A DNA stretch of 64,000 nt, from IMG/VR virus record IMGVR_UViG_3300032323_001868, positions 1-64,000 of that record; one strand, given 5' to 3'. The stretch comes from a virus. Below the pieces are notes generated by a model. That model was not told the DNA's origin. It made no database searches and saw only the letters and a program-made list of their open reading frames with translations. Shown here piece after piece: positions 3,671 through 48,058 of the stretch. The first letter of the stretch is position 1. Each line of letters begins with the position of its first letter. Both the position numbers and the translations under genes were made by a program.

Positions 3671-3674
3671 ATAT

Positions 3675-3750: not shown

Positions 3751-3751
3751 G

Positions 3752-3825: not shown

Positions 3826-3829
3826 CTAA

Positions 3830-3904
3830 GCGAAAGTAACTCAATGGTAGAGTACTACCTTGCCAAGGTAGATGTTGCGAGTTCGAGCCTCGTCTTTCGC
3901 TCCA
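3830..3904 (+). tRNA. tRNA-Gly (GCC)
   Basis: Acceptor stem GCGAAAG/CTTTCGC, D-arm ACTC/GAGT, anticodon stem CTACC/GGTAG with loop TTGCCAA (anticodon GCC), T-arm GCGAG/CTCGT (one G-T pair). CCA is encoded at 3902-3904. Glycine supply would suit the collagen-like fibres (speculative). Confidence 0.92.
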
Positions 3905-3905
3905 C

Positions 3906-3978
3906 ACCTCTGTAGTTCAGTGGATAGAACAATGGACTTCTAAGCCATGTGTCGCAGGTTCGATTCCTGCCAGGGGTA
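3906..3978 (+). tRNA. tRNA-Arg (TCT)
   Basis: Acceptor stem ACCTCTG/CAGGGGT with one G-T pair, D-arm GTTC/GAAC, anticodon loop CTTCTAA (anticodon TCT), T-arm GCAGG/CCTGC. The anticodon stem has an A-G mismatch at 31-39. AGA is the likely cognate codon and looks frequent in this AT-rich genome. Confidence 0.9.
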
Positions 3979-3982
3979 CGTA

Positions 3983-3991
3983 TGGTATAAT
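3983..3991 (+). promoter_or_regulatory. Extended -10 promoter for the first oxygenase pair
   Basis: TGG plus TATAAT directly after the tRNA cluster, then a short leader with GGAG before ATG 4011. Confidence 0.6.
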
Positions 3992-4010
3992 TATTAAAAT
4001 TGGAGAATCA

Positions 4011-4685: not shown

Positions 4686-4695
4686 TGGAGTTGAA

Positions 4696-5253
4696 ATGTT
4701 AGAAAAAAAATTTTTAGGTGGTTATGATATCTTTATGTATCCTAATGTTTTTACTATAAAAGAATGTCAAGAGTATATAGATTATTTTGATTCTGAATAT
4801 TCAAAAAAACAAGAAACAAATTCTGAACTAATAGATGGTATTAAACTTGATATACCAATAGAAAATAATAGTACTGGTATTGATCAACACAAAGTTAATA
4901 CTTTAAATAATAAATTTAAGTATTTAACAGAACATGCACATAATATATCAGCAAAACTTACCACTATGCATGGACTAATATGGCAAACTGAATCTTTTGG
5001 TAACTACCACTCAGATAATTCTGATATAGACGGTAATGATATTGGGGCATCGCAATATAAGTTTTCAACAATTTTATACTTAAATGATGATTATCTCGGT
5101 GGAGAAATACTTTTTAGAGACCATGACCTATCGATAAAACTAAATGCTGGGTCCATTCTATCCTTTCCTGGAGGAATTAAAAACATACATAGGATTAACC
5201 GTGTTGCTGAAGGCAAAAGATACAATATAGTTTCATTTTTTGATGTTAACTAA
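4696..5253 (+). CDS. 2OG-Fe(II) oxygenase, prolyl 4-hydroxylase type
   Basis: 185 aa with a GGAG Shine-Dalgarno. The triad is His105-Ser-Asp107 and His165, with Arg175 (GKRYN) as 2-oxoglutarate ligand. The core FSTILYLNDDYLGGEILFRDHD is nearly the same as in its upstream neighbour, so the two look like diverged tandem duplicates. The N-terminal 90 residues are Asn/Lys/Ile-rich and poorly conserved between them, which is where substrate specificity would lie. It probably forms an operon with 4011-4685. Confidence 0.87.
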   Translation: MLEKKFLGGYDIFMYPNVFTIKECQEYIDYFDSEYSKKQETNSELIDGIKLDIPIENNSTGIDQHKVNTLNNKFKYLTEHAHNISAKLTTMHGLIWQTESFGNYHSDNSDIDGNDIGASQYKFSTILYLNDDYLGGEILFRDHDLSIKLNAGSILSFPGGIKNIHRINRVAEGKRYNIVSFFDVN

Positions 5254-17472: not shown

Positions 17473-18159
17473 TCAACACTCTTCTGAAGTGCTAAATGGT
17501 ATATTGTTTACATCATTAAATGAATTGCCATAAAGGGTGTGTCTCCATGATCCAGAAGTTATTTTGTTAACCTTATGCGTAAACTCTTTTGTTACTGGAA
17601 CACCAACCATCATTCCAGCCTTTGGCTTTAGTTTATATGGCTTGTACATAAAATCTAACTCTCCACCTTCAAAATCATCATTTAAATAAATACTAAAAGA
17701 TAGGCTGAAAGGTGGAATTGGAGATGTTTCATCCCACTCAGAATGCCAAGGCATTGCAAAATCAACCACATTTCCATTCATGTTGGACCTTAGTTTTGGA
17801 TCTAAATCTCTATCTATTTCTTCATCTGTGCAATATTTAAATGTTTGAATTGCCCCATGTGCTAGACAGGTCGGTGGCATAACATCCCTAATTCTGGATG
17901 CAACTCCATTTTGACCAAAGAAAAACTCTGGTTGAATATATTTGTCACCTTCAATTGGCAGTCTAGAATTACCATTTTCATCAAGTGGGATATCTACCAT
18001 AGGAAATTTATTTAAAATATTTTTATAAGGTGATCTCATTGTTGTATACCAGCCACGCTTATCATTTATATATGGTTTAAACCAGTCCAACTCTTCTTTT
18101 GTAAGAAAGTTTTCAATATACCATAGGTCTTTTTCAATTACTACTTTTTCAGTGTTCAT
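17473..18159 (-). CDS. 2OG-Fe(II) oxygenase, P4H-like
   Basis: 228 aa. The core FSLSFSIYLNDDFEGGELDFMY and the late His195 and Arg206 fit the family. The first metal motif reads WHSEWD, so the ligands are His139 with Glu141 (HxE) or a shifted Asp. The ATG is 6 nt from TATAAT, a leaderless start. It is adjacent to another oxygenase (18190). Confidence 0.82.
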   Translation of the reverse strand: MNTEKVVIEKDLWYIENFLTKEELDWFKPYINDKRGWYTTMRSPYKNILNKFPMVDIPLDENGNSRLPIEGDKYIQPEFFFGQNGVASRIRDVMPPTCLAHGAIQTFKYCTDEEIDRDLDPKLRSNMNGNVVDFAMPWHSEWDETSPIPPFSLSFSIYLNDDFEGGELDFMYKPYKLKPKAGMMVGVPVTKEFTHKVNKITSGSWRHTLYGNSFNDVNNIPFSTSEEC

Positions 18160-18165
18160 AGTAAC

Positions 18166-18174
18166 ATTATATCA
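18166..18174 (-). promoter_or_regulatory. Extended -10, leaderless start at 18159
   Basis: On the minus strand, TGA plus TATAAT, then 6 nt (GTTACT) to the ATG. Confidence 0.75.
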
Positions 18175-18189
18175 CTTAAATTTTTATAT

Positions 18190-18723
18190 CTATCTAAAAA
18201 AATCAGTTATGCAATATCTATTTCCACTAGTAACAGGGTGCACTCCATGCTTATAGTCATTATAAGCAGGATGAACAATAATAGAATTTTCTACAGGCTT
18301 GAGAACTATATCTTTATTTATATAGTTTATCTCACCTCCATCAAAATTATCATTAATGTAAAAAACTAATCCCTTTTTAATATCTGATGTTTCTAAATTG
18401 CCAGAATTATCTGCGTGTGGATTCATTGCCCATTTAGTTGTGTTGTGATCAAATTGATTCGGTATAATTTTTATTATATTTTTTGATCTAGCAATCTTTA
18501 GTCCTGGCTCAACATAATTTTCTATGTAGTCATACAGGGTGTCAAGAATTAAACACAACTCTGTTATGTTTGCACTTTTTTGATATGAGTATGTATATTC
18601 ATTGCGTGAATAGTTGTGCCAATCGGATTCATCTGCTGCATATTCCTGCAAAGTTTTCAATTGATCTAATTTTAAAATATTTTGAATTTGATATATTTCT
18701 TTATCTATATAAACTTTTTCCAT
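18190..18723 (-). CDS. 2OG-Fe(II) oxygenase, P4H-like
   Basis: 177 aa. His103-Ala-Asp105, His159 and Arg169 (GNRYC), with VFYINDNFDGGEINY as core. Leaderless start. It lies between another oxygenase and a DNA-repair-like gene, each with its own promoter. Confidence 0.85.
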   Translation of the reverse strand: MEKVYIDKEIYQIQNILKLDQLKTLQEYAADESDWHNYSRNEYTYSYQKSANITELCLILDTLYDYIENYVEPGLKIARSKNIIKIIPNQFDHNTTKWAMNPHADNSGNLETSDIKKGLVFYINDNFDGGEINYINKDIVLKPVENSIIVHPAYNDYKHGVHPVTSGNRYCITDFFR

Positions 18724-36006: not shown

Positions 36007-36288
36007 ATGACCCAACACCTACTTACCACTCTTAGCAACACTGAGGCTACACGCCTAACTCCAAACGGAACTCATACTGGTTTGGACATTACTATTCAAA
36101 ATGTACATGAATCAGCATATGTTTATATTGGTGGAATTGGAGTGACTTCCAATAATTATGGATACCGCCTTGCTCCAGGTGCTGCGTGGTCTATTGAACT
36201 TTCAGGTAAAGATTCTTTATATGCAATTACTGACACTAATACTTCCAAAGTGGCAGTTCTTTCTACAAACCTAGAATCAGGAAATTAA
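36007..36288 (+). CDS. Virion appendage-like protein (93 aa)
   Basis: Beta-rich (TGLDITIQNVHESAYVYIGGIGVTSNNYGYRLAPGAAWSIELSGKDSLYAI), the form of small head/tail decoration proteins. It starts the fibre operon; the collagen-like gene follows 2 bp later. Leaderless. Confidence 0.6.
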   Translation: MTQHLLTTLSNTEATRLTPNGTHTGLDITIQNVHESAYVYIGGIGVTSNNYGYRLAPGAAWSIELSGKDSLYAITDTNTSKVAVLSTNLESGN

Positions 36289-36290
36289 TT

Positions 36291-37628
36291 ATGGCACGGT
36301 TTACCCAAGCAGGTGGATCAGGTTCGGGAGAACCAGGACCACAGGGCCCAGCAGGAGAAAACGGCACTAATGGCTCAAATGGAGCAGATGGTGCAGATGC
36401 TCTATGGAATTATGTTGGGGAATACAACGGTGGTGCATCATATGCTGTAGGAGATGTTGCAACTTATGATGGACAACTTTGGTACCGTGCTAATGCAAAC
36501 GGTGGAAATGTTGGAGATACACCTTCAGAAGGATTTATCTGGAATTTACTTGCAGCAAAGGGTATTAACGGTGCTGATGGAGCAGATGGCAATGATGGTG
36601 CTCCTGGTGCAGATGGTGCACAGGGAGATACTGGTAGTCCAGGACTTGTTTATTTAGGCAGTTATGTTTCTGGTAATGGATACATTGCAAACATTGCTGT
36701 TGTAAAAGGAAGCGATAACAATCTTTACATAGCAACATCAAGTGGTGGATTAGGAGATCCAGTTGGAAATAGTGCAGAGTGGAGCATATTCCTTCCAAAG
36801 GGTGTTGATGGAGAAGATGCAACTCTTCCACAGGATTTAGGAACAACAGACAGCCCAACATTTAGCAAGATTACACTTACAAGTAACGGGGCAATAGATA
36901 ACATTACAATTGGTGATGATGTACTTATTGGTGATGGAAATATTGCAAACCACTTAGTAATTGTTGGAAATCAAGATTCAACACAAGGTGGAATTGTTCT
37001 TGGTGACAATAAAACTGAACAAGTTTCATCATATGGATCAAATCTTTCTTTATATGCAAACAATGACATTATTCTTAATCCAGCAAGCACATATGCATAT
37101 ATTGGTACACCAACTATCGGTGGAGAAACAAGGATTGCTACTTGGGATTATGTGACAACATCTGTTGGAACAGGTAGCAATGGAGAAGTTACAAGATGGA
37201 CTCCAAACTTTACAGCAACTGGTTTAACATTTACTGGATCAGGTGCTACACATCCAACATACAATTCACACTATGTTAAGAATGGTCGTATGGTATCTTT
37301 TTTTATTGAAATTGATATGGCTACCGTTACAAATTTTGGTACTGGACAATATAAGACAGCGCTTCCATTTGCACCACTTTCTGGAACAATGAATCATTTT
37401 CAGTCATGGTGTCTTGTTGATGAAACTGCTAATCCAGATAATACAGGACATGCTATTTTGCAAGCAGATCATTTAGCAAATACATCAGTTCTTGATTTGC
37501 ACTACATAAAGCAATCTGGTGGAGCAAATTCTCCAGTAATGGAAGCATTGTTTAAGCAGGGTAGCCCAGTAACATTAACTACTGCAACCCATGTTTATAT
37601 CAACGGTACTTACATAACTGCTGAGTAG
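36291..37628 (+). CDS. Collagen-like tail fibre/appendage protein
   Basis: 445 aa. Gly-X-Y repeats at residues 11-35 and 90-118 flank modules of the type YNGGASYAVGDVATYDGQLWYRANA, which resemble small carbohydrate-binding (CBM5/12-like) repeats. The C-terminal 150 residues are beta-rich (TPNFTATGLTFTGSGATHPTYNSHYVKNGRMVSFFIEI), like receptor-binding heads. Three Pro lie in the Y position before Gly (Pro15, Pro105, Pro117), sites that prolyl hydroxylases use in collagens. It would form a trimeric fibre. Confidence 0.85.
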   Translation: MARFTQAGGSGSGEPGPQGPAGENGTNGSNGADGADALWNYVGEYNGGASYAVGDVATYDGQLWYRANANGGNVGDTPSEGFIWNLLAAKGINGADGADGNDGAPGADGAQGDTGSPGLVYLGSYVSGNGYIANIAVVKGSDNNLYIATSSGGLGDPVGNSAEWSIFLPKGVDGEDATLPQDLGTTDSPTFSKITLTSNGAIDNITIGDDVLIGDGNIANHLVIVGNQDSTQGGIVLGDNKTEQVSSYGSNLSLYANNDIILNPASTYAYIGTPTIGGETRIATWDYVTTSVGTGSNGEVTRWTPNFTATGLTFTGSGATHPTYNSHYVKNGRMVSFFIEIDMATVTNFGTGQYKTALPFAPLSGTMNHFQSWCLVDETANPDNTGHAILQADHLANTSVLDLHYIKQSGGANSPVMEALFKQGSPVTLTTATHVYINGTYITAE

Positions 37629-37664
37629 TAGTAAATAGTGATATAGTTATATTTGGGGGTAGAT

Positions 37665-38168
37665 ATGTCATATCAGGTATTTGATAACTTTTTGTTACCT
37701 AACGAATTTAACCAAGTTAAGAACACTGTATGCGATCCAAGATTTCCTTGGGGATATAGTAGTTCTATTACGACTGAAGTAAGCACTGGACCATATGACT
37801 TTCAGTTTGTTCACATGTTTTATCAAAATCATAGAGTTATGTCAGAACACTTTGAATCTATATACCCTTTAATAAACAAAATAAATCCAGCAGCAATCGC
37901 AAGAGTTAAGGCAAATTTAGTTACTAGGAATCCAGTAAGTAACGAGTTTGGATATCACACAGATTTTGAAGATGCACATTTATTGAAGTCAGCGGTATAT
38001 TATTTAGATACAACCGATGGCGTTACCAGGTTTAAGGACGGCACAGAGGTAGAATGCATAGAGAATAGACTATTAGTATTTAACAATAATATGCCACATA
38101 CTTCTACTAGTTGTACGGATCAAAAGGTTAGAAGAGTCATAAATCTCAACTATTATGAACTAATTTAA
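37665..38168 (+). CDS. 2OG-Fe(II) oxygenase, cyanophage-type
   Basis: 167 aa from ATG 37665 after GGGGGT. GYHTDF gives His98-Thr-Asp100, NMPHTS gives His145, and RRVINLNY gives Arg157. Shorter and less similar than the other oxygenases here, it looks like the small family that is common in marine phages. It directly follows the collagen-like fibre. Confidence 0.8.
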   Translation: MSYQVFDNFLLPNEFNQVKNTVCDPRFPWGYSSSITTEVSTGPYDFQFVHMFYQNHRVMSEHFESIYPLINKINPAAIARVKANLVTRNPVSNEFGYHTDFEDAHLLKSAVYYLDTTDGVTRFKDGTEVECIENRLLVFNNNMPHTSTSCTDQKVRRVINLNYYELI

Positions 38169-38178
38169 TCTTAAATAA

Positions 38179-38187
38179 TGATATAAT
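38179..38187 (+). promoter_or_regulatory. Extended -10, leaderless start at 38195
   Basis: TGA plus TATAAT, 7 nt (AAACCTT) before the ATG. Confidence 0.72.
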
Positions 38188-38194
38188 AAACCTT

Positions 38195-38410
38195 ATGACT
38201 CCACAAGACTGGGCTGCATTCATTCTTACTGTACTCTCAATAGGCGGAGTTATATTCGGTGTTATTAATTTTCTAATCAAGCACTATCTAAGCGAACTTA
38301 AGCCAAATTCAGGATCATCACTAAAAGATTCAGTCAACAGATTAGAGGATAAGACTGACAAGATGTTCGATCTATTAATTGAACATATTACAGATCATAA
38401 TAAAAAGTAA
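38195..38410 (+). CDS. Small membrane protein with coiled-coil tail (71 aa)
   Basis: MTPQDWAAFILTVLSIGGVIFGVINFLIKHYLSELKPNSGSSLKDSVNRLEDKTDKMFDLL: one or two transmembrane helices, a SELKPNSGSSLKDSV motif and a short coiled coil. This pattern occurs in many tailed phages, often near tail or lysis genes. Leaderless. Confidence 0.65.
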   Translation: MTPQDWAAFILTVLSIGGVIFGVINFLIKHYLSELKPNSGSSLKDSVNRLEDKTDKMFDLLIEHITDHNKK

Positions 38411-38514
38411 TCTCTATATATAATATATATAAGTATATAACTTTTACAGTATATTCTTTTCTTTATATATTTTAAGTATACACTACTCAATACCCTGGTT
38501 AATTGTACATAACA

Positions 38515-38531
38515 TTACAAAACGGACATTT
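38515..38531 (+). promoter_or_regulatory. CGGACATTT box
   Basis: ACAAAACGGACATTTAG, sharing AAAACGGACATTTAGTA with the box at 34238-34254. Outlying copy in the fibre region. Confidence 0.4.
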
Positions 38532-38620
38532 AGTATTGTAACGATTAGATAACAATTTAATAAACTCCTGGTTTTATACGTAAATGAATAACTATACAAA
38601 TAATAAGATATAATCTAAGA

Positions 38621-38672
38621 GTTAGTCCCTAGGTTTGCTACCCCACCCCACCCACTGCTCCTAGGGGCTAAC
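38621..38672 (+). other. Strong hairpin at a predicted transcript start
   Basis: GTTAGTCCCTAGG pairs with CCTAGGGGCTAAC over 13 bp (one G-T) around a 26-nt C/A-rich loop. TATAAT at 38609-38614 would start a transcript right at the 5' arm. The next promoter (38684) follows at once, so a short structured RNA or a transcription roadblock is possible. Confidence 0.5.
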
Positions 38673-38683
38673 CTTATTTATTA

Positions 38684-38692
38684 TGGTATAAT
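38684..38692 (+). promoter_or_regulatory. Extended -10, leaderless start at 38700
   Basis: TGG plus TATAAT, 7 nt (CAATGAT) before the ATG. Confidence 0.7.
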
Positions 38693-38699
38693 CAATGAT

Positions 38700-39095
38700 A
38701 TGTGCTCTCCTACAATAGAAAAATTTGGAGCCACTCCAGCAAATATACAGTGGACGGTGGTTCGTGGAGACTCTGCCTCATTTACCGTATCCCTTCTTGA
38801 GAACGACGAAGTTACAGAGTTTGACACTGAAGGATGGACATTCTCTGCAACAGCGTATGATCCAGTATTTAACTTTTTAGATGACCTTCCAGTTACAGTT
38901 GATGGAAGTGTCATAACAGTCACTGCCCCATCTGAGACAACAACAAATTGGGGTGCTGAATATAAGTCTGTAGTTGCTGAATTATCATTTGATCTACAGG
39001 CAATTGTCCCAGACGGATCTTCTACAATTACTTGGACTCCAGTCATAGGAACTATATGTGTTCTTGGAGATGTTACTCCTGGAGGCAGTTTGTGA
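38700..39095 (+). CDS. Beta-sandwich virion-like protein, paralogue of 19830 and 48762
   Basis: 131 aa. IQWTVVRGDSASFTVSLLENDEVTEFDTEGWTFSATAYDP...GTICVLGDVTPGG shares the W-V-RGD-F-V start, GW turn and GDVT end of its paralogues. Predicted Ig-like fold, probably part of a virion appendage. Confidence 0.65.
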   Translation: MCSPTIEKFGATPANIQWTVVRGDSASFTVSLLENDEVTEFDTEGWTFSATAYDPVFNFLDDLPVTVDGSVITVTAPSETTTNWGAEYKSVVAELSFDLQAIVPDGSSTITWTPVIGTICVLGDVTPGGSL

Positions 39096-39175
39096 TAATT
39101 AAAATTAATGACAAAAACACTAAACTCCCACCAGTTATAAAAATAAATGGGACTATATTTAAAGTAAAGAAGTAA
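39092..39175 (+). CDS. Micro-partner protein (27 aa)
   Basis: GTG 39092 overlaps the previous stop (GTGA) and follows GGAGG. MIIKINDKNTKLPPVIKINGTIFKVKK is basic and beta-like. It occupies the partner position seen after the other two beta-sandwich paralogues. Confidence 0.5.
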   Translation: MIIKINDKNTKLPPVIKINGTIFKVKK

Positions 39176-39179
39176 GTCT

Positions 39180-39908
39180 ATGGCTATATCAAAGAGCATG
39201 GACTCTCCAGTTAGAAAATCTAATTATGCAGAGCAGGTTGCTCAGTCACAAGGACAAGATCCTACTTTATCTTTCCTACCAGTTCCTGGACCACAAGGAC
39301 CTGCAGGCCCACAAGGTGAAAAAGGTCAACAAGGACCTCAAGGGCCTATTGGTGAAAAAGGTGAAAAGGGTGATCCAGGAAAAGATGGTAAAAATGGAAA
39401 AGATGGCAAGGACGGAAAAAGCGTTTTATCACCTTCTGAGCAACAAATAGGTTGGGCATATTATGAAAATACATCCAAGTCTCAAAAACGGGTAGGAATA
39501 GATCAAGGTGATGATGGCTGGGTTAGGCTTTTAATTGATAGGGTAGGATATAAAAAAAATGAGCAGTACCTGCCAAATGGAGGTGTTTCTCTTTGGAATT
39601 CAACCACAGGCAAGATTAATTTTAAAACCTTAAATATTGGTTCAATCATAACAATACGTTATAATATTTTATTGACTACCTACTCAAACAATACAGAGGT
39701 GTGGTTTAGAACATATGTTGAAGACTCTGATCAAATACCAACCACATATGTAGGCAATCTAAAATACCAGTATGATTATGAATTTACTGTTTCTCAGAAT
39801 ATATTTTTAAATGACTTTGCCATTCAAAATTTTGGTGGTATACCACAGATAAGAACTGATAATGCTGGGGAAGCCCTGCTAAAATCTATATATATATCTG
39901 TATCGTAA
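39180..39908 (+). CDS. Collagen-like fibre protein
   Basis: 242 aa. The N-terminal 30 residues are an attachment arm. Gly-X-Y repeats run from about residue 37 to 80, ending in a GKDGKNGKDGKDGK block. Three Lys (Gly-Glu-Lys-Gly) and Pro66 (Gly-Asp-Pro-Gly) sit in the Y position, the classical target for lysyl and prolyl hydroxylases. The C-terminal domain (from about 85) is beta-rich and may bind receptor. It lies next to the oxygenase cluster. Confidence 0.85.
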   Translation: MAISKSMDSPVRKSNYAEQVAQSQGQDPTLSFLPVPGPQGPAGPQGEKGQQGPQGPIGEKGEKGDPGKDGKNGKDGKDGKSVLSPSEQQIGWAYYENTSKSQKRVGIDQGDDGWVRLLIDRVGYKKNEQYLPNGGVSLWNSTTGKINFKTLNIGSIITIRYNILLTTYSNNTEVWFRTYVEDSDQIPTTYVGNLKYQYDYEFTVSQNIFLNDFAIQNFGGIPQIRTDNAGEALLKSIYISVS

Positions 39909-39931
39909 AATAGATAAACTTTAAATAAGTA

Positions 39932-39940
39932 TGCTATAAT
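39932..39940 (+). promoter_or_regulatory. Extended -10, leaderless start at 39947
   Basis: TGC plus TATAAT, 6 nt (TCAATT) before the ATG. Confidence 0.72.
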
Positions 39941-39946
39941 TCAATT

Positions 39947-40456
39947 ATGCAAAATATCGGTATAACAGACTCCCAGGATGGCCGTAAGCCAGACGCCCCA
40001 ATCATCGGTACAGCAACAGGTGGAAATGCACAAGCATCAGTTGCTTTTACTGCCCCATCAACAACAGGTAAAGGTACTGGAAGTCTTACATATACCGCAA
40101 CATCTAATCCAGGATCTATAACAGGCACAGCATCTTCGTCACCAATTACAGTAACTGGTTTGGCAAATGGAACAGCATATACTTTTACAGTTACACTAAG
40201 TAACGGAACACTTACATCAGATCCATCTTCTGCTTCTAACTCTGTTACTCCAGTTGCTCCACCATTCTTCCCACCATTCTTCCCAGGATTTGGTCCATTC
40301 TTCCCACCGTTCTTCCCACCATTCTTCCCGTTCTTCCCACCGTTCTTCCCATACTTCCCACCGTTCTTCCCGTTCTTCCCGTTCTTCCCACCGTTCTTCC
40401 CGTTCTTCCCACCATCATTTGGACCATGGTTCCCATTCAACGCAACTAGACGATAA
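39947..40456 (+). CDS. Fn3-domain protein with (Phe-Phe-Pro-Pro)n tail
   Basis: 169 aa. Residues about 16-103 form a fibronectin type III domain (PDAPIIGTATGGNAQASVAF...PITVTGLANGTAYTFTVTLSNGTLTS). Residues 105-157 are only Phe and Pro with one Gly-Phe-Gly and one Tyr, repeating FFPPFFPxF; the end is SFGPWFPFNATRR. Such an aromatic-Pro tail is very unusual and should be extended and sticky. Nine P4H-like genes, two of them immediately, follow it, making its prolines candidate substrates (inference). Leaderless. Confidence 0.8.
   Translation: MQNIGITDSQDGRKPDAPIIGTATGGNAQASVAFTAPSTTGKGTGSLTYTATSNPGSITGTASSSPITVTGLANGTAYTFTVTLSNGTLTSDPSSASNSVTPVAPPFFPPFFPGFGPFFPPFFPPFFPFFPPFFPYFPPFFPFFPFFPPFFPFFPPSFGPWFPFNATRR
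40259..40417 (+). repeat. Phe/Pro-coding DNA repeat
   Basis: Tandem TTCTTCCCACCG and TTCTTCCCA/G units encode the FFPP tail. Unit number could vary by slippage between strains. Confidence 0.8.
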
Positions 40457-40480
40457 TAGTTTAAATGTAGGGGGTTTGTA

Positions 40481-41053
40481 TTGAATCATATCAATGTGGT
40501 TAAAAACTTTATTGAGCCTGAGCATATAAATAAGTTAACATCTTTTATAGACAACAATATAGAAAAATTTGTGGTATATCAAGATAATAAAAGATATGTA
40601 TGGAGATTTGGTCATGATAATTTTTGGGAAGACTGCAAAAAAGACTTAACACCACTTTCTGAAATTATAGAAATACTTGAAACTAAAATTTTTAACAATA
40701 TGTTAAAAAAAATAAAAGAGTTCTATAATGAAGATCTAGTTATTTCTAGTTTTTGGATATCAAAGCATGAGCCAGGATCCAGAGTCGCTATGCATGAAGA
40801 TACAGATGAGGGTGAAAATACTCATTTTTCTCATAGTGCCGTTCTATACTTAACATCCCTTCAAGATGACGGAGTTATAGAATTTCCTTTTGTTAATTTT
40901 ACTTATACCCCAGTTGCTGGTGAGTTATTGCTTTTCCCATCAAAAGCCATAGACTTTGATTATCAATTTATGCATGAGGTAAAAGAAATAAATAGCCCAA
41001 GGTACAGTATTGCTCTTTGGGCAGCACCAAAAGAATATTCTTTATATGAGTGA
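40481..41053 (+). CDS. 2OG-Fe(II) oxygenase (tandem copy 1)
   Basis: 190 aa with TTG start after GGGGG. His105-Glu-Asp107, His165 and Arg174 (SPRYS). VLYLTSLQDDGVIEFPF replaces the usual LND-Y-GG core. Clear paralogue of the next gene: both start with (N/K)HINV-(K/E)NFI and have WLSKH/WISKH-PGS before the metal motif. Confidence 0.85.
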   Translation: MNHINVVKNFIEPEHINKLTSFIDNNIEKFVVYQDNKRYVWRFGHDNFWEDCKKDLTPLSEIIEILETKIFNNMLKKIKEFYNEDLVISSFWISKHEPGSRVAMHEDTDEGENTHFSHSAVLYLTSLQDDGVIEFPFVNFTYTPVAGELLLFPSKAIDFDYQFMHEVKEINSPRYSIALWAAPKEYSLYE

Positions 41054-41071
41054 TAAAGATTTAATGTGCTG

Positions 41072-41080
41072 TGATATAAT
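41072..41080 (+). promoter_or_regulatory. Extended -10 promoter
   Basis: TGA plus TATAAT; AAAGGGG precedes the TTG start at 41098. Confidence 0.6.
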
Positions 41081-41097
41081 TAAAAAAGGGGTGTTTT

Positions 41098-41667
41098 TTG
41101 AAACATATTAATGTAATTGAAAACTTTATTGATGATGATACCAATAAACTAATGGTTGACTTCATTAATAATAATCAAGAACTATTTTCGTCAGATCAAG
41201 AGGACAGAAGATTTGCCTTAAGGTTTGGCAAAGATTTTTATTGGCAAGACTCAAATGAAGATATGTCATTGTTAAAGGATTTGTCTAATATCTTTAAAGA
41301 CAAGATTTTTCCTAAAGTTAATAATGTAATCTTTGAACTATACAATGAAAAAAATCTAAAAGTATCTAACGTGTGGCTTTCTAAGCATCTTCCTGGTTCA
41401 ATAGTGCCAATGCACCTAGACCATGATGGATGGAGAAATTCACAGTTTAGATATAGTGCAATACTTTATTTAAGCACATTAGACAATGATGGAATATTGC
41501 AGTTTCCATTTTTAGAGCATAGTTACACACCAGTATCTAATAGTTTAATTATTTTTCCTTCACACGGAATTGATTTTGATGATCAGTTTGCACATCGTGT
41601 AGATAGCATTAATTCTGTAAGATATAGCGTTCCTATGTGGATTTCCGACATAGAATATAGTTTATGA
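41098..41667 (+). CDS. 2OG-Fe(II) oxygenase (tandem copy 2)
   Basis: 189 aa with TTG start. His106-Leu-Asp108, His166 and Arg175 (SVRYS). Same layout as copy 1, but with its own promoter. The unusual TTG start is shared by both copies, so the duplication probably included the start region. Confidence 0.85.
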   Translation: MKHINVIENFIDDDTNKLMVDFINNNQELFSSDQEDRRFALRFGKDFYWQDSNEDMSLLKDLSNIFKDKIFPKVNNVIFELYNEKNLKVSNVWLSKHLPGSIVPMHLDHDGWRNSQFRYSAILYLSTLDNDGILQFPFLEHSYTPVSNSLIIFPSHGIDFDDQFAHRVDSINSVRYSVPMWISDIEYSL

Positions 41668-41673
41668 TATAAT
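41665..41673 (+). promoter_or_regulatory. Extended -10 promoter
   Basis: TGA plus TATAAT overlapping the previous stop; AAAGGGG precedes ATG 41691. Confidence 0.6.
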
Positions 41674-41690
41674 TTAAGAAAGGGGTAATT

Positions 41691-42374
41691 ATGAATACGT
41701 TAGAGCACAAAGGTATAACAGTAAAAGATCTTGGGAGTGGCATTCTTGTTTATAGTAATGTTTTGCCAAGAGATTTAAACATTCCAGAAAGACTAGAAAA
41801 TGTCCTGGGTGGAAATGAAAATATTGTTGACGGCAATCCAGTCAGATATGCCTGGCAACCAGCATATGTAGGGTACCAAGAGTTGATGCCAGACTACAGA
41901 GATTGCGTAGATTTTAAGTATAAGAAGAGTGATCTTTATGATGATGGAACAGAAGAGTATAAGCAACTTGCCAATATCTGGGATGATTGCTATACAACGC
42001 AAAAAGAAGTAGTAGATCATTATTGTGCTAAATTTAATATTCACAACCTAAGATATTGGGAAGCATTTAATTTTATTAAATATGAAAAGGGAGATCACTT
42101 CCAATACCATCACGACCATGGGTTTTCATATAACTGTACAGTTTCTTTAGTTGCATACCTTAATGACAACTATGAGGGTGGAGGTCTTCACTTCCAGCAT
42201 CAAGATATTTTGTATAGACCAGTTGCTGGAGATGTTGTAATCTTTCCTTCAACATATATGTATTCACATAGAGCAATGCCAGTTGAAAATGGAACAAAGT
42301 ATTCTTTGGTTACTATGCTTGATTATAGTGATAAATATCATAAGCCAGAATTTTATCAAGAAACTGGATCATGA
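41691..42374 (+). CDS. 2OG-Fe(II) oxygenase, Lys-type
   Basis: 227 aa. YHHDHG gives His140-x-Asp142, YSHRAM gives His193, and GTKYS puts Lys203 where others have Arg. Lys at this site is what animal collagen prolyl 4-hydroxylases use to bind 2-oxoglutarate. VAYLNDNYEGGGLHFQHQD is the core. Related to 43102-43818 by the RDCVDFKYK and YWEAFNF(I/V)KYE blocks. Confidence 0.87.
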   Translation: MNTLEHKGITVKDLGSGILVYSNVLPRDLNIPERLENVLGGNENIVDGNPVRYAWQPAYVGYQELMPDYRDCVDFKYKKSDLYDDGTEEYKQLANIWDDCYTTQKEVVDHYCAKFNIHNLRYWEAFNFIKYEKGDHFQYHHDHGFSYNCTVSLVAYLNDNYEGGGLHFQHQDILYRPVAGDVVIFPSTYMYSHRAMPVENGTKYSLVTMLDYSDKYHKPEFYQETGS

Positions 42375-43102
42375 GCAACACAATAACCTTTACATCAAAC
42401 AAACCTTGGATAACTTTAGACGATTCGTCTTTGCCAACTCCAATTATAAAAACTATTCCAGATTGGTATAGAAAGGCAGACAGATTTGCTAAAAAGCAAG
42501 ATGGAGAATATTGGGAAGATCCAAATGTTGGTGGCAAAATCCCAACATGGAAAGCATGTCCTGCAATATTTGATGTTATGGGTACAGGGTACACTCTTAG
42601 AACTCCTTGCGACATAGAGTTTGTTCAAAGAAGCCCTAACACTATGTCAGTTACAATTGCTGATGCTAAATATAAAGATTTTTGTGTTCCAAGACCAAAA
42701 ATGCCACAGTTTGAACATCCAAGAGGATATTATGAAAATCATTTTGCTTGGTTTTCAGAGTGGGAAATAAAAACACCTACAGGATACAGCATACTGTACT
42801 CACAACCATTTAATAGGTATGAGTTACCATTTTTAACTACATCTGGAATTATTGATAACGATAAGGTTCACTTGCCTGGATCAATGCCTTTCTTTTTAGC
42901 AAAAGGGTTTGAAGGTATTATTCCCGAAGGCACACCTTATGCACAATTAATACCATTTAAAAGAGAAGACTGGAAGTCAGAAGTTAATCTAGAAGATCCT
43001 TCCAAAATTTCTGAAAAAAATTATAAAAATTCTGCCAAGTACAGAGTTCCAGATGGCGGTATATATAAGAATAAAGTGTGGGAACCAAGGAGATACGAAT
43101 AA
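42371..43102 (+). CDS. Conserved phage protein, paralogue of 2948-3670
   Basis: 243 aa. PDWYRKADRF, FDVMGTGYTLRTPCDIEF, TPTGYSILYSQPFNRYELPF and GTPYAQLIPFKREDW align with the 2948 product. It overlaps the oxygenases on both sides, so it is co-expressed with them. It may be a sensor, chaperone or cupin-like partner; unknown. Confidence 0.68.
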   Translation: MSNTITFTSNKPWITLDDSSLPTPIIKTIPDWYRKADRFAKKQDGEYWEDPNVGGKIPTWKACPAIFDVMGTGYTLRTPCDIEFVQRSPNTMSVTIADAKYKDFCVPRPKMPQFEHPRGYYENHFAWFSEWEIKTPTGYSILYSQPFNRYELPFLTTSGIIDNDKVHLPGSMPFFLAKGFEGIIPEGTPYAQLIPFKREDWKSEVNLEDPSKISEKNYKNSAKYRVPDGGIYKNKVWEPRRYE

Positions 43103-43818
43103 TGAATACCTATGATGAAAATAATAATGTTTGGTTTACAAAAGATAGATCAGAGACAGTATCTAACAGAGTTGTTAGGTCACTTAATGGTGCTATTAAT
43201 GTTGAAAATCCAGGTATAGGTTTAAATATATACACAAATGCTTTTTCTAAAGAAGATGCTGATAGATATATTAATATTCTTGAGTCTAATCTAGGTCAAA
43301 ATAAAAAATACAAGTGGTCAGATGCTACAGTCACAAACTCTCCTAATCCAATTAAAAGGGCAAGAGATTGCGTAGACTTTAAGTATAAGCAAGAAAATTT
43401 AGGGCCAAGAGACAACACAAACGCAGAACTAATAGATTTGCATCAAGAGATATATGAAAAACTAAAGTTGTGTATAGATGACTATGCCAGATACTGGGGT
43501 ATAGAGGTTGTTTATTATGAAGCCTTTAACTTTGTAAAATATGAAGGAGAGGGTACACACTTCAATATCCATGCAGATCATGGTCCAGCATACAACTGCA
43601 CAGTATCTGCAGTTATCTATATTAATGATGACTATGAGGGAGGGGAACTAAAGTTTCCAAGATTAGACAACTATGTTCATAAGCCAAGAGTTGGAGATAT
43701 AGCAGTTTTCCCTTCAAACTATATTTATGAGCATGCATCTCTTCCTATGAAGTCTGGAACTAAATACTGTGTAGTGATTATGACTGATATAAACAAGTTA
43801 GGACATAAAGATTTCTAA
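43102..43818 (+). CDS. 2OG-Fe(II) oxygenase, Lys-type
   Basis: 238 aa; ATG 43102 overlaps the previous stop and follows AAGGAG. IHADHG gives His157-Ala-Asp159, YEHASL gives His211, and GTKYC gives Lys221. VIYINDDYEGGELKFPRLD is the core. Sister of 41691-42374. Confidence 0.87.
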   Translation: MNTYDENNNVWFTKDRSETVSNRVVRSLNGAINVENPGIGLNIYTNAFSKEDADRYINILESNLGQNKKYKWSDATVTNSPNPIKRARDCVDFKYKQENLGPRDNTNAELIDLHQEIYEKLKLCIDDYARYWGIEVVYYEAFNFVKYEGEGTHFNIHADHGPAYNCTVSAVIYINDDYEGGELKFPRLDNYVHKPRVGDIAVFPSNYIYEHASLPMKSGTKYCVVIMTDINKLGHKDF

Positions 43819-44561
43819 TGATTAACTTATCCGCTGAAAAAATGATAGGATGTCCGCTAGTAGTTTCTCCCATGTCTATTAAAAGAGATTGGATGGATGA
43901 AACTCCACAGGGACATGCGTATAGGTGTTTTCCAGTCGGACAGGCCAACATGGTTGGTTGGAGCCTTTCTTGTGTAGACGACATTACCTTTGTTTGGAAC
44001 GGTATAACAGATACTACTTCAGATACAGTGTCTATAGTAGATCAAAAGCCATATCTTTATACTGGTCGTGGTCAATCAACATTAAGTTTTAATACAGGGT
44101 TAGTTTTTAAATCTGACGAAAATATTAGTTTATTAACAATCAACCCAGTAAATTCTTTTAGTTTGGATTTTGAAACTATGTCTTCTTTGATAAGTACATC
44201 ATTTTATGACAACCCGCTACCATTAGCCATTAAAGCCAGGGCTGCTAACAAAGAGGTAACAATAAAAGCAGGAACACCTATAGCAACAATAATTCCTATA
44301 TCATTAACAATGATAAATAACACTACAATCAATATTGTTGATTATTTAGATATAGATAATAAGAGAGCCTTATCAAATCAAGCATACGGTGAGGCAGCAC
44401 AAGTTATCAACCAGTCAGGAAAGTGGACAGACTGGTATAGAGATGCTGTTAATGAAAAGGGTGAGTCAGTCGGACACCATGAGGCAAAAACAATAAAACT
44501 GTCTGTGGTCGATAATACAACTAGTAAAACCAATAATCCTCTAGAGAAAAAAGAGATATAA
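43818..44561 (+). CDS. DUF6065-like protein
   Basis: 247 aa. MSIKRDWMDETPQGHAYRCFPVGQANMVGWSLSCVDDITFVWNG matches the DUF6065 start (W-MD-TP--FAYRC-P---AN--GW). Later GRGQSTLSFNTG, NPLPLAIKAR and AGTPIATIIPIS fit the rest. It overlaps the oxygenase stop by one base. In other phages DUF6065 genes also sit near structural or glycan genes; function unknown. Confidence 0.7.
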   Translation: MINLSAEKMIGCPLVVSPMSIKRDWMDETPQGHAYRCFPVGQANMVGWSLSCVDDITFVWNGITDTTSDTVSIVDQKPYLYTGRGQSTLSFNTGLVFKSDENISLLTINPVNSFSLDFETMSSLISTSFYDNPLPLAIKARAANKEVTIKAGTPIATIIPISLTMINNTTINIVDYLDIDNKRALSNQAYGEAAQVINQSGKWTDWYRDAVNEKGESVGHHEAKTIKLSVVDNTTSKTNNPLEKKEI

Positions 44562-44562
44562 T
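44557..44562 (+). promoter_or_regulatory. -10 element, leaderless start at 44569
   Basis: TATAAT overlapping the upstream stop, 6 nt (GTAATT) before the ATG. Confidence 0.65.
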
Positions 44563-44568
44563 GTAATT

Positions 44569-45297
44569 ATGAACACTAACGAAAACATGCAGGTTGTAAA
44601 GAGGACTGCTTCCCTTACACCTTCTGGATTTTTTGGCAATGGGCCAGAAATGATAGTTGAGTTAGAAAACTTTATGACTCAAGAAGAGATGGATTTTTTA
44701 GAAAAGGCTGCAAAGTCTATAACTATTTGGGATGTTACCCAGAGCCATGTAAATGAGAATGGAACCGTAATATATGATTCAGATTATTGGAAAGATAGGG
44801 TTGCAACTAGCCCAACATTAGATAAAAATGATCCAGCAATTGCTCCAATTATTGCAGGGCTATTTCAAAGACTAAAGCCAATCGTAGAAGAGTTTTATAA
44901 GGTAAAGGTTAACCCAACAGGAACAACCATTGTTAGATGGTTACCTGGACAGTTTCAAAAACCACATGCAGACAAAGAACTACACGAAGGTGTAGACGCT
45001 GGACTTCCAAACGATTTTCCATACTACGATCTGTCAAGTTTGTTTTATTTAAATGAAGACTATGAGGGGGGAGAGTTATACTTTCCGCTACAAGGGGTTC
45101 AGTTTAAACCAAAAAGAGGCGCTGCATATTTTTTCCCAGGGGATATGAACTATATTCATGGCGTTACTGAAATAAAAAGTGGAATAAGATATACCTGTCC
45201 ATTTTTTTGGGAAATTCTAGAACATACTGGAGACAAGCAGCCAGACCCAAATGCTAAGTATCATAGAACACTAATAGATGGAGACATAGAAAAATGA
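44569..45297 (+). CDS. 2OG-Fe(II) oxygenase, P4H-like
   Basis: 242 aa. KPHADK gives His133-Ala-Asp135, YIHGVT gives His197, and GIRYT gives Arg207. LFYLNEDYEGGELYFPLQ is the core. It starts a run of four oxygenases (44.6-47.3 kb), the first three overlapping by 4 bp. Confidence 0.88.
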   Translation: MNTNENMQVVKRTASLTPSGFFGNGPEMIVELENFMTQEEMDFLEKAAKSITIWDVTQSHVNENGTVIYDSDYWKDRVATSPTLDKNDPAIAPIIAGLFQRLKPIVEEFYKVKVNPTGTTIVRWLPGQFQKPHADKELHEGVDAGLPNDFPYYDLSSLFYLNEDYEGGELYFPLQGVQFKPKRGAAYFFPGDMNYIHGVTEIKSGIRYTCPFFWEILEHTGDKQPDPNAKYHRTLIDGDIEK

Positions 45298-46046
45298 ACT
45301 TAAATAATAAAATTAGATTAACAGAAGATATTCTTTTGTTTGAAAACTTTTTAACAGAAGATGAATCTAAAAAGGCAATTGAGGTTTTAGACCTACAGGC
45401 TACAAACAACACCCTAACCTGGATGCCAATCTCTTTTTATGAGTCATACTCTTCTGTTATCCCGCAAGACAATGATCCCGAATTAGCAGAAATTGGCTTG
45501 CCATTTGACTTTTTTTCAAATGTAAAAAAGGGCATTATCAAAGCAGTTTCATATGTCCATGATATTGATGAGTCTAAACTGGTACAAATCGGATATCATA
45601 CTCAAAAGTGGGAGCCAGGAGCATATGCAACACTACACTCAGACAACACAGACACAGAGGGAAATTCTGGACCATTTGCAAGAAGCAAGTATGCTGCCTT
45701 CTTATACTTAAATGATGATATTGAGGGTGGAGTTTTACAGTTTCCAAGTCACAACATAGTTATTCCACCAAAAACAGGTTTGTTGGCAGCGTTTGCAGGT
45801 GGATTTGATAATATGCATGAAGTAACAATGATAACTAAGGGTGTTAGATATACACTAGGCTCATTTTGGGATGACAAGCAAGAAGAAGAGTACCCAGAAG
45901 AAGTAAGAGCGCAGTGGAAAGAAGAAATGCAAAAGATTAGAGATGCCCAAAAAATAGAAAAAGAAGAGTGGCAAAAGATACTACAAGATGGGTATAAGAT
46001 AGATCAAAATGGAAATAAATATCCTGTCAAGGATTTAGAAAAATGA
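45294..46046 (+). CDS. 2OG-Fe(II) oxygenase with helical C-terminal tail
   Basis: 250 aa. TLHSDNTDTEGN gives His115-Ser-Asp117, NMHEVT gives His175, and GVRYT gives Arg185. After the core (LYLNDDIEGGVLQFPSHN) the last 60 residues are a charged helix (VRAQWKEEMQKIRDAQKIEKEEWQKIL), like the tail of the 4011 enzyme, perhaps for oligomerisation or substrate docking. Confidence 0.88.
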   Translation: MNLNNKIRLTEDILLFENFLTEDESKKAIEVLDLQATNNTLTWMPISFYESYSSVIPQDNDPELAEIGLPFDFFSNVKKGIIKAVSYVHDIDESKLVQIGYHTQKWEPGAYATLHSDNTDTEGNSGPFARSKYAAFLYLNDDIEGGVLQFPSHNIVIPPKTGLLAAFAGGFDNMHEVTMITKGVRYTLGSFWDDKQEEEYPEEVRAQWKEEMQKIRDAQKIEKEEWQKILQDGYKIDQNGNKYPVKDLEK

Positions 46047-46702
46047 TTCAATCTTTAAAACAAAAAATACAGGATGATGGTTTTGTTGTTAAAGAACCAA
46101 TCAGCGATGTGTTGGTTGTAGAAGATTTTCTTTCTATAGATGAATTGCAACAGTTTAAAAATATTATTAACAATTTAACTGAGGCTGACTGGAACATTGA
46201 ATATACCAAAAACCTAACAAGATTTTGTTTAGAAAAGTTTGGAAGAGACGATGTTGAAAATTTGGTTGCAGAGGGTAAATTTGAAATTACCAGGGGCTGG
46301 GAAGATAAAAACTATAGCATTGCAAATGACCCAATTGTAGAAAACGTTATTACTAAACTAAGTCGTTTAGTTAATTCTGTAGATCCATCGTTAGAGCCTA
46401 GCGGATTAAAAACACTGCAAAGAATGCAAGAAGGTGTTGAACTAAAGGCTCATACAGATCAGCATACAGATCCTTCAATTAGGTATGCTACGATAATTTA
46501 TTTAAATGACAACTATAATGGTGGGGAGTTGTTTTTTAGTGATAAAGATTTGGAGTTAAAGCCAAAGCCAGGTTCTTTAGTCGTGTTTCCAGGAACAGAC
46601 GATTTCAACCATGGTGTAAGGCATGTAGAGGAAGGCCCAATCAGATATGTGCTGGTGGGATTTATAAAAGTTAAAGATTTTTATGAAAATAACAAATACT
46701 AG
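46043..46702 (+). CDS. 2OG-Fe(II) oxygenase, P4H-like
   Basis: 219 aa. LKAHTDQHTD gives His137-Thr-Asp139, FNHGVR gives His190, and GPIRYV gives Arg201. IIYLNDNYNGGELFFSDKDLELKPKPGSLVVFPG is a textbook P4H core. Overlaps the previous gene by 4 bp. Confidence 0.88.
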   Translation: MIQSLKQKIQDDGFVVKEPISDVLVVEDFLSIDELQQFKNIINNLTEADWNIEYTKNLTRFCLEKFGRDDVENLVAEGKFEITRGWEDKNYSIANDPIVENVITKLSRLVNSVDPSLEPSGLKTLQRMQEGVELKAHTDQHTDPSIRYATIIYLNDNYNGGELFFSDKDLELKPKPGSLVVFPGTDDFNHGVRHVEEGPIRYVLVGFIKVKDFYENNKY

Positions 46703-46717
46703 GAAATGGAGATAGAA

Positions 46718-47347
46718 ATGGACAAGCAGATACTAGAAGAAAAGGTTTATTACTATACAAAAGTAATTGATGATCCAAAAAAACTTGTTGATGCCATTGA
46801 GAGTGACAATGCAAGCGAATGGGGAGAGTGGGCTGCTTGCAGCGGACAACACTACGTCTACGGTACAGATAAGAGCATTTCTTTGTCTGATGAAAAAGAT
46901 GAATCAAATAACTATATCTACTCTACATTACAAAAGGCTTTTGACGATGTAGCAAGAGACTATGCAAAATCTCAAGGAATTACAGATGAACCAAAACTGT
47001 TTCCTATGTATCCGATTAAAAAGTATCAGGCTGGAACCTTTATGGGTGCACATTTTGACCAACAAGAGGGAGACGAAAGACTAAAGGTTTCTTTTGTTAT
47101 GTATCTAAATGATGATTATGAAGGTGGAGAAATTTCATTTACTATTGCCTCACCAGAAGGCGTACTAAAGACACAGACTCCTCATGCAGATTTTGAAATT
47201 GCCAAAGATGAAGGAAATTATACGTTTTATGTGAAGCCAGAAGCAGGAAGCATTATCGTGTTTCCTCCATCTCCACCATACCACCATACCGCTCATCTGG
47301 TAAAAAGTGGATATAAGTACATGGTTCCACAACACTGGATTCATTAA
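46718..47347 (+). CDS. 2OG-Fe(II) oxygenase, Lys-type, with inserted loop
   Basis: 209 aa from ATG 46718 (GGAG 6 nt upstream; ATG 46706 is possible). GAHFDQ gives His112-Phe-Asp114, YHHTAH gives His190 or His193, and GYKYM gives Lys200. About 25 extra residues sit between the core strand and the second His. VMYLNDDYEGGEISF is the core. Confidence 0.87.
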   Translation: MDKQILEEKVYYYTKVIDDPKKLVDAIESDNASEWGEWAACSGQHYVYGTDKSISLSDEKDESNNYIYSTLQKAFDDVARDYAKSQGITDEPKLFPMYPIKKYQAGTFMGAHFDQQEGDERLKVSFVMYLNDDYEGGEISFTIASPEGVLKTQTPHADFEIAKDEGNYTFYVKPEAGSIIVFPPSPPYHHTAHLVKSGYKYMVPQHWIH

Positions 47348-47349
47348 TT

Positions 47350-48018
47350 TTGAAAACTGCAATAGTCACAGGGGCAAGTAAGGGTGTTGGCTATGAAACA
47401 GTCAAACTTTTGTCTAAAAATGGATATAAAGTAATTGCTGTTTCAAGAAACCTTTCTAAAGTTTCTGAGTTAGAGTCTGAAAATGTTGAAACATACAAAC
47501 TAGATATAACAAATTCGGACGAAATAAAAAATTTTTATGAAAAGTATAAAAATATAACATTAGACCTTCTAGTAAACAATGCAGGTGGTGGATCTAGCCC
47601 AACAGACATTATGCACGAAACAATGGCAAACTTTAGAATCGCCTATGACATAAATGTTTCTGGCCCTATGTATCTTTCACAACTGTTTGTGCCATGTATG
47701 AAAAAGTCAAACTCCCCAACTATTATTTTTGTAACATCAATAGGTGGTAATGTTCCATATCCTGGGGGTGGTAACTATACAAATGCTAAACGAGGCGAGA
47801 TAGGTCTTATTGAGACAATGAGGTTAGAGTTTCCATCACACAACATTAAGGTAACAGAGATATGCCCAGGGACTATAGATACTCAACAAGAAAAGAAAGA
47901 TCAAGCGCTTACTGCTGAAGACCTTGCCGAATCTATTTTGTGGGTTTCTTCATTGCCAAGCCATTTTAATGTCAATAGTCTGAATATTAGTCATATCAAT
48001 AATGCAGTTTTTAGATAA
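47350..48018 (+). CDS. Short-chain dehydrogenase/reductase (SDR)
   Basis: 222 aa with TTG start. TGASKGVG (7-14) binds NAD(P); NNAG (76-79), Ser130 and Tyr143-x3-Lys147 form the active site; PGT follows. It could reduce or oxidise a sugar or keto group for fibre or surface glycan modification (inference from the neighbours). Confidence 0.88.
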   Translation: MKTAIVTGASKGVGYETVKLLSKNGYKVIAVSRNLSKVSELESENVETYKLDITNSDEIKNFYEKYKNITLDLLVNNAGGGSSPTDIMHETMANFRIAYDINVSGPMYLSQLFVPCMKKSNSPTIIFVTSIGGNVPYPGGGNYTNAKRGEIGLIETMRLEFPSHNIKVTEICPGTIDTQQEKKDQALTAEDLAESILWVSSLPSHFNVNSLNISHINNAVFR

Positions 48019-48020
48019 AA

Positions 48021-48058
48021 AAATACCCTCCTAGCATTGTGCTAAGAGGGTTATTTTT
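48021..48058. terminator. Bidirectional terminator between convergent genes
   Basis: ACCCTC/GAGGGT plus AGCA/TGCT pairing, with A-rich sequence on the left and TTATTTTTA on the right, serving both the SDR gene (+) and the lysozyme-like gene (-). Confidence 0.75.

Follow-up and report, generated by a model that had tools for sequence, protein, structure and literature searches.

What use would a bacteriophage have for a tight block of hydroxylase-like genes, and on which molecule would their products act? The question is raised by the IMG/VR record IMGVR_UViG_3300032323_001868 (89,761 bp), of which bases 1-64000 were analysed here; this whole stretch is called the window, and genes are named by their start positions in it. 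An operon at 39947-48018 on the + strand, in which neighbouring genes overlap or start within about 45 bases of the preceding gene's end, begins with a Phe/Pro-repeat protein (hereafter the stalk) and continues with 2-oxoglutarate (2OG)-Fe(II) oxygenases, two DUF6065 proteins and a short-chain dehydrogenase (SDR). An earlier reading of the bare sequence (the original prediction) had proposed that 13 oxygenases of the window hydroxylate the phage's own collagen-like Gly-X-Y fibres, which GT25 glycosyltransferases would then decorate. We present a comparative analysis in which the hydroxylases are retained and the substrate is replaced: with a probability of roughly 0.7, the operon is dedicated to the post-translational modification, by hydroxylation, of an aromatic-proline tail stalk. 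At least six hydroxylase-like genes appear to be inherited with a Phe-Pro tail-protein gene in many uncultured aquatic phages and, because the enzyme block and the stalk gene are inherited together, such a phage probably hydroxylates its own stalk. The reading is built on observed genes and their families, two fold matches, gene order and joint presence and absence with the stalk.

Conservation of the cassette

A search of IMG/VR with oxygenase 43102 returned 541 relatives, of which 80 loci were read, and more than 200 related or pattern-fetched loci were examined overall. The gene order in the 80 loci was nearly constant, namely stalk, oxygenase, DUF6065, oxygenase, DUF6065, four to five more oxygenases and SDR. 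With genes labelled by their best match to the window proteins, the 52 cassettes that were bounded on both sides all held five oxygenases and two DUF6065 genes (52/52), while a sixth oxygenase was found in 51 and the SDR in 41. This conservation rules out a chance clustering of oxygenases. The two DUF6065 proteins of the cassette (42371, 43818), interleaved with the oxygenases, and a third at 2948 had been overlooked by the original prediction.

In a tree built with 173 oxygenases, drawn from 29 lineages, most members of each of the six core types fell into a clade of their own, and the core copies therefore look like separate, retained enzymes and not like recent duplicates. The cassette occurs at two genomic sites, in phages whose portal proteins are 49-80% identical to the portal of the window's phage.

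Co-inheritance with an aromatic-proline stalk

Among 156 loci with cassettes of at least three oxygenases, a stalk gene lay upstream of the cassette in 121, at a median gap of 156 bases. The other 35 comprised 14 with no upstream gene in view and 21 with an upstream gene but no stalk just upstream; in 17 of these 21 an FP repeat was present, either at the edge of the contig or at another place in the locus, and 4 were cut off within 1.7 kb. FP-repeat arrays at a contig edge lie where assemblies tend to break. The association was also approached from the other side, using a DNA pattern for FFPPFFPFFPPFFP alone (at least 120 stretches). Thirty-five FFPP-pattern records were at least 30 kb long; at least six PF13640 genes were found in 33 of them and DUF6065 likewise in 33.

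As a control for kinship, 18 records were picked by portal similarity only. All three FFPP-positive records among them have 5-6 oxygenases, and nine records of 28-101 kb that lack the FFPP motif also lack any oxygenase. Two records that seemed to break this rule (G053 and G060) have oxygenases that adjoin stalks of different repeat types, namely FPPP and FGFxP. In 25 loci where a fibre gene abuts the ribonucleotide reductase (RNR) gene, no stalk was in view (0/25) and oxygenases were lacking in 24; in the 25th the cassette occupies the second site, which is also the one used in the window. On this pattern of presence and absence among portal relatives and fibre-RNR loci, the stalk and the enzymes are gained and lost together, at two sites.

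The enzyme content also follows the type of stalk repeat, since FFPP, FPPP and FGFxP stalks have different sets. FFPP cassettes hold 6-11 oxygenases, and FPPP stalks had oxygenases nearby in 14/14 loci. The FGFxP stalks are accompanied by another gene set, which in complete examples consists of DUF6065-like proteins, a Pfam-less family and two oxygenases. A family found downstream of FGFxP stalks (L500:415-1098 and 106 relatives) gave no Pfam or PHROG match; it conserves H.hDH...GhPH...RITIAYD-like residues and may be a diverged 2OG oxygenase.

It could be argued that no functional tie exists, and that stalk and enzymes travel together only because both sit in a receptor-binding hot spot. The region is indeed variable and lies among fibre genes, and such islands are known in actinophages: in cultured Nanopelagicales phages collagen-like proteins sit in a variable island, and oxygenases go unmentioned in the text (PMC10202952). 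Such co-location would have to account for a gene order and core set retained by 52/52 complete cassettes within a 29-lineage sample, for the occurrence of the unit at two sites and for the collagen fibres of the same island, which do not show the association. It is considered unlikely, though the least unlikely of the alternatives weighed here.

The stalk protein and its candidate role

The repeat arrays of the stalks reach about 172 residues and are built of FFPP (53%) and FFP (38%) units in irregular order. The window's stalk (39947) encodes Pro by CCA 16 times and by CCG 8 times, and Phe by TTC 26 times and by TTT twice. An antisense reading of the repeat (open reading frame 39934-40440, minus strand, Gly-Lys-Asn repeats) was rejected because of the fn3 domain and the operon on the + strand. 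The base of the stalks is fn3-like and the tips vary: some are Cys-rich knobs, others are Hint domains, and in others the gene for an S74 fibre chaperone follows immediately. Upstream of the stalk gene there is usually a fibre gene, and these features fit a tail appendage.

In a search of 85,000 cellular genomes the FFPP repeat was found on one contig only, and this contig itself carries a cassette. It belongs to a Chitinophagaceae metagenome-assembled genome, is 5.3 kb long, keeps the order fibre-stalk-cassette and is probably viral. The aromatic-proline repeat thus appears nearly confined to viruses.

By eye, some Phe/Pro or FGFxP stalks end in a Hint/intein-like C-terminal domain (L069, L072, L075, L081, L293:13916-15181, L301:2-583), which suggests that the stalk tip cleaves itself or becomes cross-linked. 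At other loci, L514 among them, it is the next gene after the stalk that encodes a weak Hint match. Elsewhere (L041:1380-1736, L066:8780-9127) the stalk C-terminus (SSKRFKHSI...) resembles the start of a Peptidase_S74 fibre chaperone, the remainder of which is a separate gene just downstream with its own ribosome-binding site.

These Hint domains, self-cleaving and located at some C-termini, together with the several tailoring families at the loci, would also suit a precursor of a secreted peptide resembling the ribosomally synthesised and post-translationally modified peptides, tailored by the cassette and freed by Hint cleavage and not part of the virion. Stalk genes follow fibre genes directly in most loci and some precede an S74 fibre chaperone, the fn3 bases and the length of the arrays are as expected of a rod, and no transporter or dedicated protease was seen at the loci. 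A peptide precursor is accordingly regarded as the most improbable of the alternatives.

Nearest relatives of the oxygenases and of DUF6065

All 13 oxygenases named by the original prediction carry the HxD/E...H...R/K triad in the 2OG-oxygenase register, and in a Pfam profile search 12 of the 13 exceeded the curated cut-off of PF13640. The remaining one (37653/37665) scored 23.5 bits against a cut-off of 27, yet matched phrog_274 at 8e-47. The placement of nine of them beside two Gly-X-Y fibres and the Phe/Pro-repeat protein was confirmed as well (37.65-47.35 kb, all on the + strand).

The best sequence match of 41691 in the PDB was LH3, and the single-sequence PDB matches of 44569 were the prolyl 4-hydroxylase (P4H) of PBCV-1, PiuC, BaP4H and P3H1. 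A profile of the 41691/43102 group matched Bacillus anthracis P4H (5e-8), PBCV-1 P4H, LH3, mimivirus L230, PKHD hydroxylases and a prolyl 3-hydroxylase (P3H1), and it gave no AlkB or TET match within E 0.1. The AlphaFold model of 41691 had a predicted local distance difference test score (pLDDT) of 90; all 50 of the PDB fold matches listed for it were peptidyl hydroxylases, headed by a Pseudomonas P4H bound to EF-Tu and by PHD2. Structure prediction, which the original prediction had proposed as a check between P4H/PLOD enzymes and nucleobase hydroxylases, thus sides with the peptidyl hydroxylases for 41691. As judged by the profile and predicted fold of the 41691/43102 group, the cassette oxygenases find their best matches, among solved structures, in prolyl and lysyl peptidyl hydroxylases.

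Homologues of the oxygenases exist in cyanophages. Three 2OG oxygenase families of PHROG v4 (phrog_274, phrog_2297 and phrog_3531) are named 'DNA endonuclease V', 'DNA endonuclease' and 'ferrochelatase', names that are probably misannotations passed on to cyanophage records.

The model of DUF6065 protein B (43818) matched dUTPases with a Foldseek probability of 1.00, E 4e-5 and a template modelling score (TM-score) to the target of up to 0.73, and the protein is, on this model, dUTPase-like in fold. Protein A (42371) is related to protein B by profile match. At the sequence level the Pfam search gave no dUTPase match for the DUF6065 proteins, protein B had a weak profile match to the wsv112 dUTPase (E 0.16) and a PDB profile search with protein A gave no match. 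No match was found by tblastn with a DUF6065 protein in the cultured phages of INPHARED. Aromatic stalks come with DUF6065 also at loci without a detected oxygenase (L463, L485, L491, L521 and L543).

The dUTPase-like fold, a weak Tet_JBP match of 44569 that stayed under the cut-off, and the RNR gene near the cassette would be in keeping with oxygenases that hydroxylate a DNA base while the dUTPase-fold proteins handle the nucleotide pool. Nucleotide modification had been the alternative of the original prediction; it is not supported for the oxygenases, whose profile and fold matches are peptidyl hydroxylases, and nucleobase hydroxylation was rejected on the lack of AlkB and TET matches for the 41691/43102-group profile. 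It would also leave the joint gain and loss with the stalk and the repeat-dependent enzyme sets unexplained, and we hold it to be highly unlikely.

Collagen as an alternative substrate

The claim that collagen-like fibres are hydroxylated by the oxygenases and then glycosylated by GT25 enzymes has some points in its favour, as both Gly-X-Y proteins of the window adjoin the cassette and collagen hydroxylases are among the best PDB matches. Across loci, the two kinds of genes dissociate both ways. A collagen-like gene was in view in 25/156 cassette loci and 14 of the 35 FFPP records had no collagen match, while three records (G055, G058, G062) have collagen and lack oxygenases. In a control, a DNA scan for collagen-like sequence gave 106 readable viral loci, and oxygenases were counted within 5 kb: at least one was nearby in 4/106 collagen loci versus 80/107 FFPP loci (Fisher 2e-29), and at least three in 0/106 versus 59/107 (Fisher 4e-23). 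Some of the loci depend on one another, which makes the p-values look stronger than they are; the difference as such is plain.

This dissociation led us to reject collagen as the main substrate. The GT25 step met the same end as a core step, since glycosyltransferases are absent from the conserved core of the 52 complete cassettes. The collagen scheme as a whole is rated about as improbable as base hydroxylation. What stands of the original prediction, and strongly so by profile and fold matches and by linkage to tail-fibre-like genes, is a peptidyl-hydroxylase set for the phage's own fibres; its conserved partner is the Phe/Pro-repeat protein, which had been named only in passing.

Two of the four collagen loci with an oxygenase (L307, L387) count in favour of collagen elsewhere, as their oxygenases lie beside or between very long collagen genes; together with L332 and L302 they make four loci in which one or two 2OG oxygenases adjoin or separate very long Gly-X-Y genes, and collagen hydroxylation in these other phages is possible. 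Another locus (G027 / L124) encodes several giant collagen-like proteins and an FFP-rich protein, with no oxygenase or DUF6065 detected.

A putative modification line and the points against it

In the proposed mechanism, the first gene would give a fibre protein with an N-terminal fn3-like base, an FFPP/FFP rod and a variable tip. During infection, at least six distinct 2OG-Fe(II) hydroxylases would act in turn on the Pro and/or Phe residues of the repeats, and a very hydrophobic chain could thereby become a soluble, polar, stiff or adhesive rod. Oxidation or reduction of some newly made hydroxyl groups may fall to the SDR, and DUF6065, to judge from its fold, may hold the substrate or the enzymes as a trimeric scaffold; glycosylation would be at most an optional add-on. 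Enzymatic activity, the stalk as substrate, the modified atoms and the presence of the stalk in the virion are what we infer here.

Some cassettes contain or adjoin additional tailoring genes. Only six contigs have a glycosyltransferase inserted in the cassette. A Trp-halogenase-family gene directly follows RNR beside the cassette in L046:18550-19740 (PF04820 tested) and, alike, in L050:12934-14112; a radical SAM/SPASM gene interrupts one cassette after DUF6065 protein A and before the oxygenase that follows (L066:11493-12428); and sulfotransferase-like genes were seen by eye in or beside some cassettes. These four kinds of genes suggest optional further decoration. A glutathione-peroxidase-like gene (PF00255) was found within the cassette at several loci (for example L126:2255-3028 and L087:3663-4460). 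That the whole would amount to a new biopolymer class, with an FFPP/FFP tail rod, non-redundant hydroxylases, DUF6065 and SDR, repeat-specific enzyme sets and sometimes halogenation, sulfation or glycosylation, is as we see it an evenly balanced proposition.

Several points weigh against stalk hydroxylation. The 541 relatives were selected via an oxygenase, and there is redundancy and fragmentation among the loci of IMG/VR. Two FFPP-positive records, G027 (38 kb) and G044 (a 48 kb fragment), have no oxygenases, and the five FGFxP stalks listed above with DUF6065 have only that DUF6065-like gene before RNR. The profile evidence covers the 41691/43102 group and AlphaFold covers one oxygenase (41691), the TM-scores of which are moderate (0.5-0.68), and none of the PDB matches has an FFPP substrate. 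The dUTPase-like fold modelled for DUF6065 could hint at nucleotides.

Relation to known systems

The closest viral likeness is vCPH of the chlorovirus PBCV-1 (PDB 5c5t), a virus-encoded 2OG peptidyl hydroxylase that is among the profile and fold matches here; the present system differs in being a phage operon in which at least six distinct paralogues are combined with DUF6065 and with a dedicated FFPP stalk. PBCV-1 is a virus of an alga, and its P4H is not known to be tied to such an operon. Bacterial P4H enzymes supplied the best profile match (Bacillus anthracis, 3itq, 5e-8) and the best fold match (Pseudomonas putida P4H-EF-Tu, 4iw3); these are cellular enzymes, mostly single-copy.

Viral hydroxylation of viral repeat proteins is already known from PBCV-1 and mimivirus (PMC9301287, PMC9546862). 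The PBCV-1 enzyme is thought to have Pro-rich repeat proteins of the virus itself as its targets (Eriksson et al. 1999, cited in PMC9301287), and in mimivirus a viral hydroxylase and glycosyltransferases (L230 / R699) act on viral collagen (PMC9546862). L230 lies close to the cassette oxygenases in sequence as well as in fold; its chemistry is that of collagen and hydroxylysine, whereas here an aromatic-proline repeat is the conserved partner, with glycosylation being optional.

In aquatic phages, few of the so-called auxiliary metabolic genes are commoner than those for 2OG/P4H-type oxygenases. A Baltic survey detected P4HA at 62% of its water stations and called the viral role cryptic (PMC9301287). 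Those genes belong to the same enzyme superfamily and were reported without a substrate, whereas here an operon comes with a candidate substrate. The fixed genetic link to one repeat protein gives a virus-abundant and unexplained family a testable job and a named substrate. If the proposal is true, phages would run a multi-step protein-modification line comparable to the maturation of collagen, extensin and mussel adhesive on an aromatic-proline repeat, DUF6065 would gain its first functional context, and an enzyme set for making hydroxylated polymers would be at hand. Within the literature searched, whose scope left out most subscription papers and all preprints, neither the cassette nor DUF6065 was described.

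Features of the window and phage context

Promoter-like sites were not above chance; the coordinates of the features are collected in Table 1.

Table 1. Features of the cassette and related loci in the window, with the number of complete cassettes that hold each gene
Position	Strand	Feature	Evidence	Complete cassettes
2948..5253	+	Second small cluster: DUF6065-like protein (2948), four tRNA genes, two 2OG oxygenases (4011, 4696)		
17473..18723	-	Third oxygenase pair (17473, 18190)	PF13640 above cut-off	
36291..37628	+	Collagen-like Gly-X-Y fibre Col1, optional neighbour	PF01391 3e-7, above cut-off	
37653..38168	+	2OG oxygenase, phrog_274 type, right after Col1, apart from cassette	phrog_274 8e-47; triad	
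39180..39908	+	Collagen-like Gly-X-Y fibre Col2, optional neighbour	PF01391 3.7e-9, above cut-off	
39947..40456	+	Stalk protein, 169 aa, first cassette gene	fn3-like domain 21.5 bits (under cut-off), then (FFPP/FFP)n	
40481..41053	+	2OG-Fe(II) oxygenase, variable member	PF13640 36.3 bits; triad	3/52
41098..41667	+	2OG-Fe(II) oxygenase, variable member	PF13640 28 bits; triad	2/52
41691..42374	+	Core 2OG oxygenase, P4H/PLOD-like	PF13640 8e-14	52/52
42371..43102	+	DUF6065-like protein A, core	phrog_7084 3e-34; DUF6065 alignment match, probability 96%	52/52
43102..43818	+	Core 2OG oxygenase; reading frame opens at 43078 (GTG), probable start 43102	PF13640 3e-11; 541 IMG/VR relatives	52/52
43818..44561	+	DUF6065 protein B, core, dUTPase-like fold (model)	PF19541 3.5e-26; model pLDDT 87	52/52
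44569..45297	+	Core 2OG oxygenase	PF13640 2.6e-8	52/52
45294..46046	+	Core 2OG oxygenase	PF13640 4e-7	52/52
46043..46702	+	Core 2OG oxygenase	PF13640 2e-14	52/52
46706..47347	+	Core 2OG oxygenase	PF13640 9e-11	51/52
47350..48018	+	SDR, usual final gene	PF00106 6e-43	41/52
48025..48051	.	Terminator-like site, 12-bp stem, after cassette		

A megablast search against INPHARED gave no match. Portal, protease, capsid and tape-measure genes lie downstream of the window in the 89,761-base record. An actinobacterial host is likely for the record because its structural-gene order is as in Streptomyces phage Faust (Stanwilliamsviridae), a distant relationship.

The proposed sulfotransferase-like protein (20262) gave no match in a Pfam scan. 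Of the two enzymes that had been called GT25-like, 52047 is a clear GT25 and 13490 fell just under the cut-off. The FkbM proteins (53579, 21595), the SDR (47350) and the epimerase (54207) were all recovered as had been stated, and the other glycosyltransferases in the window are a GT4 (50995), a GT2 (12793), a Gb3-type enzyme (14103) and a weak GT34 (52736).

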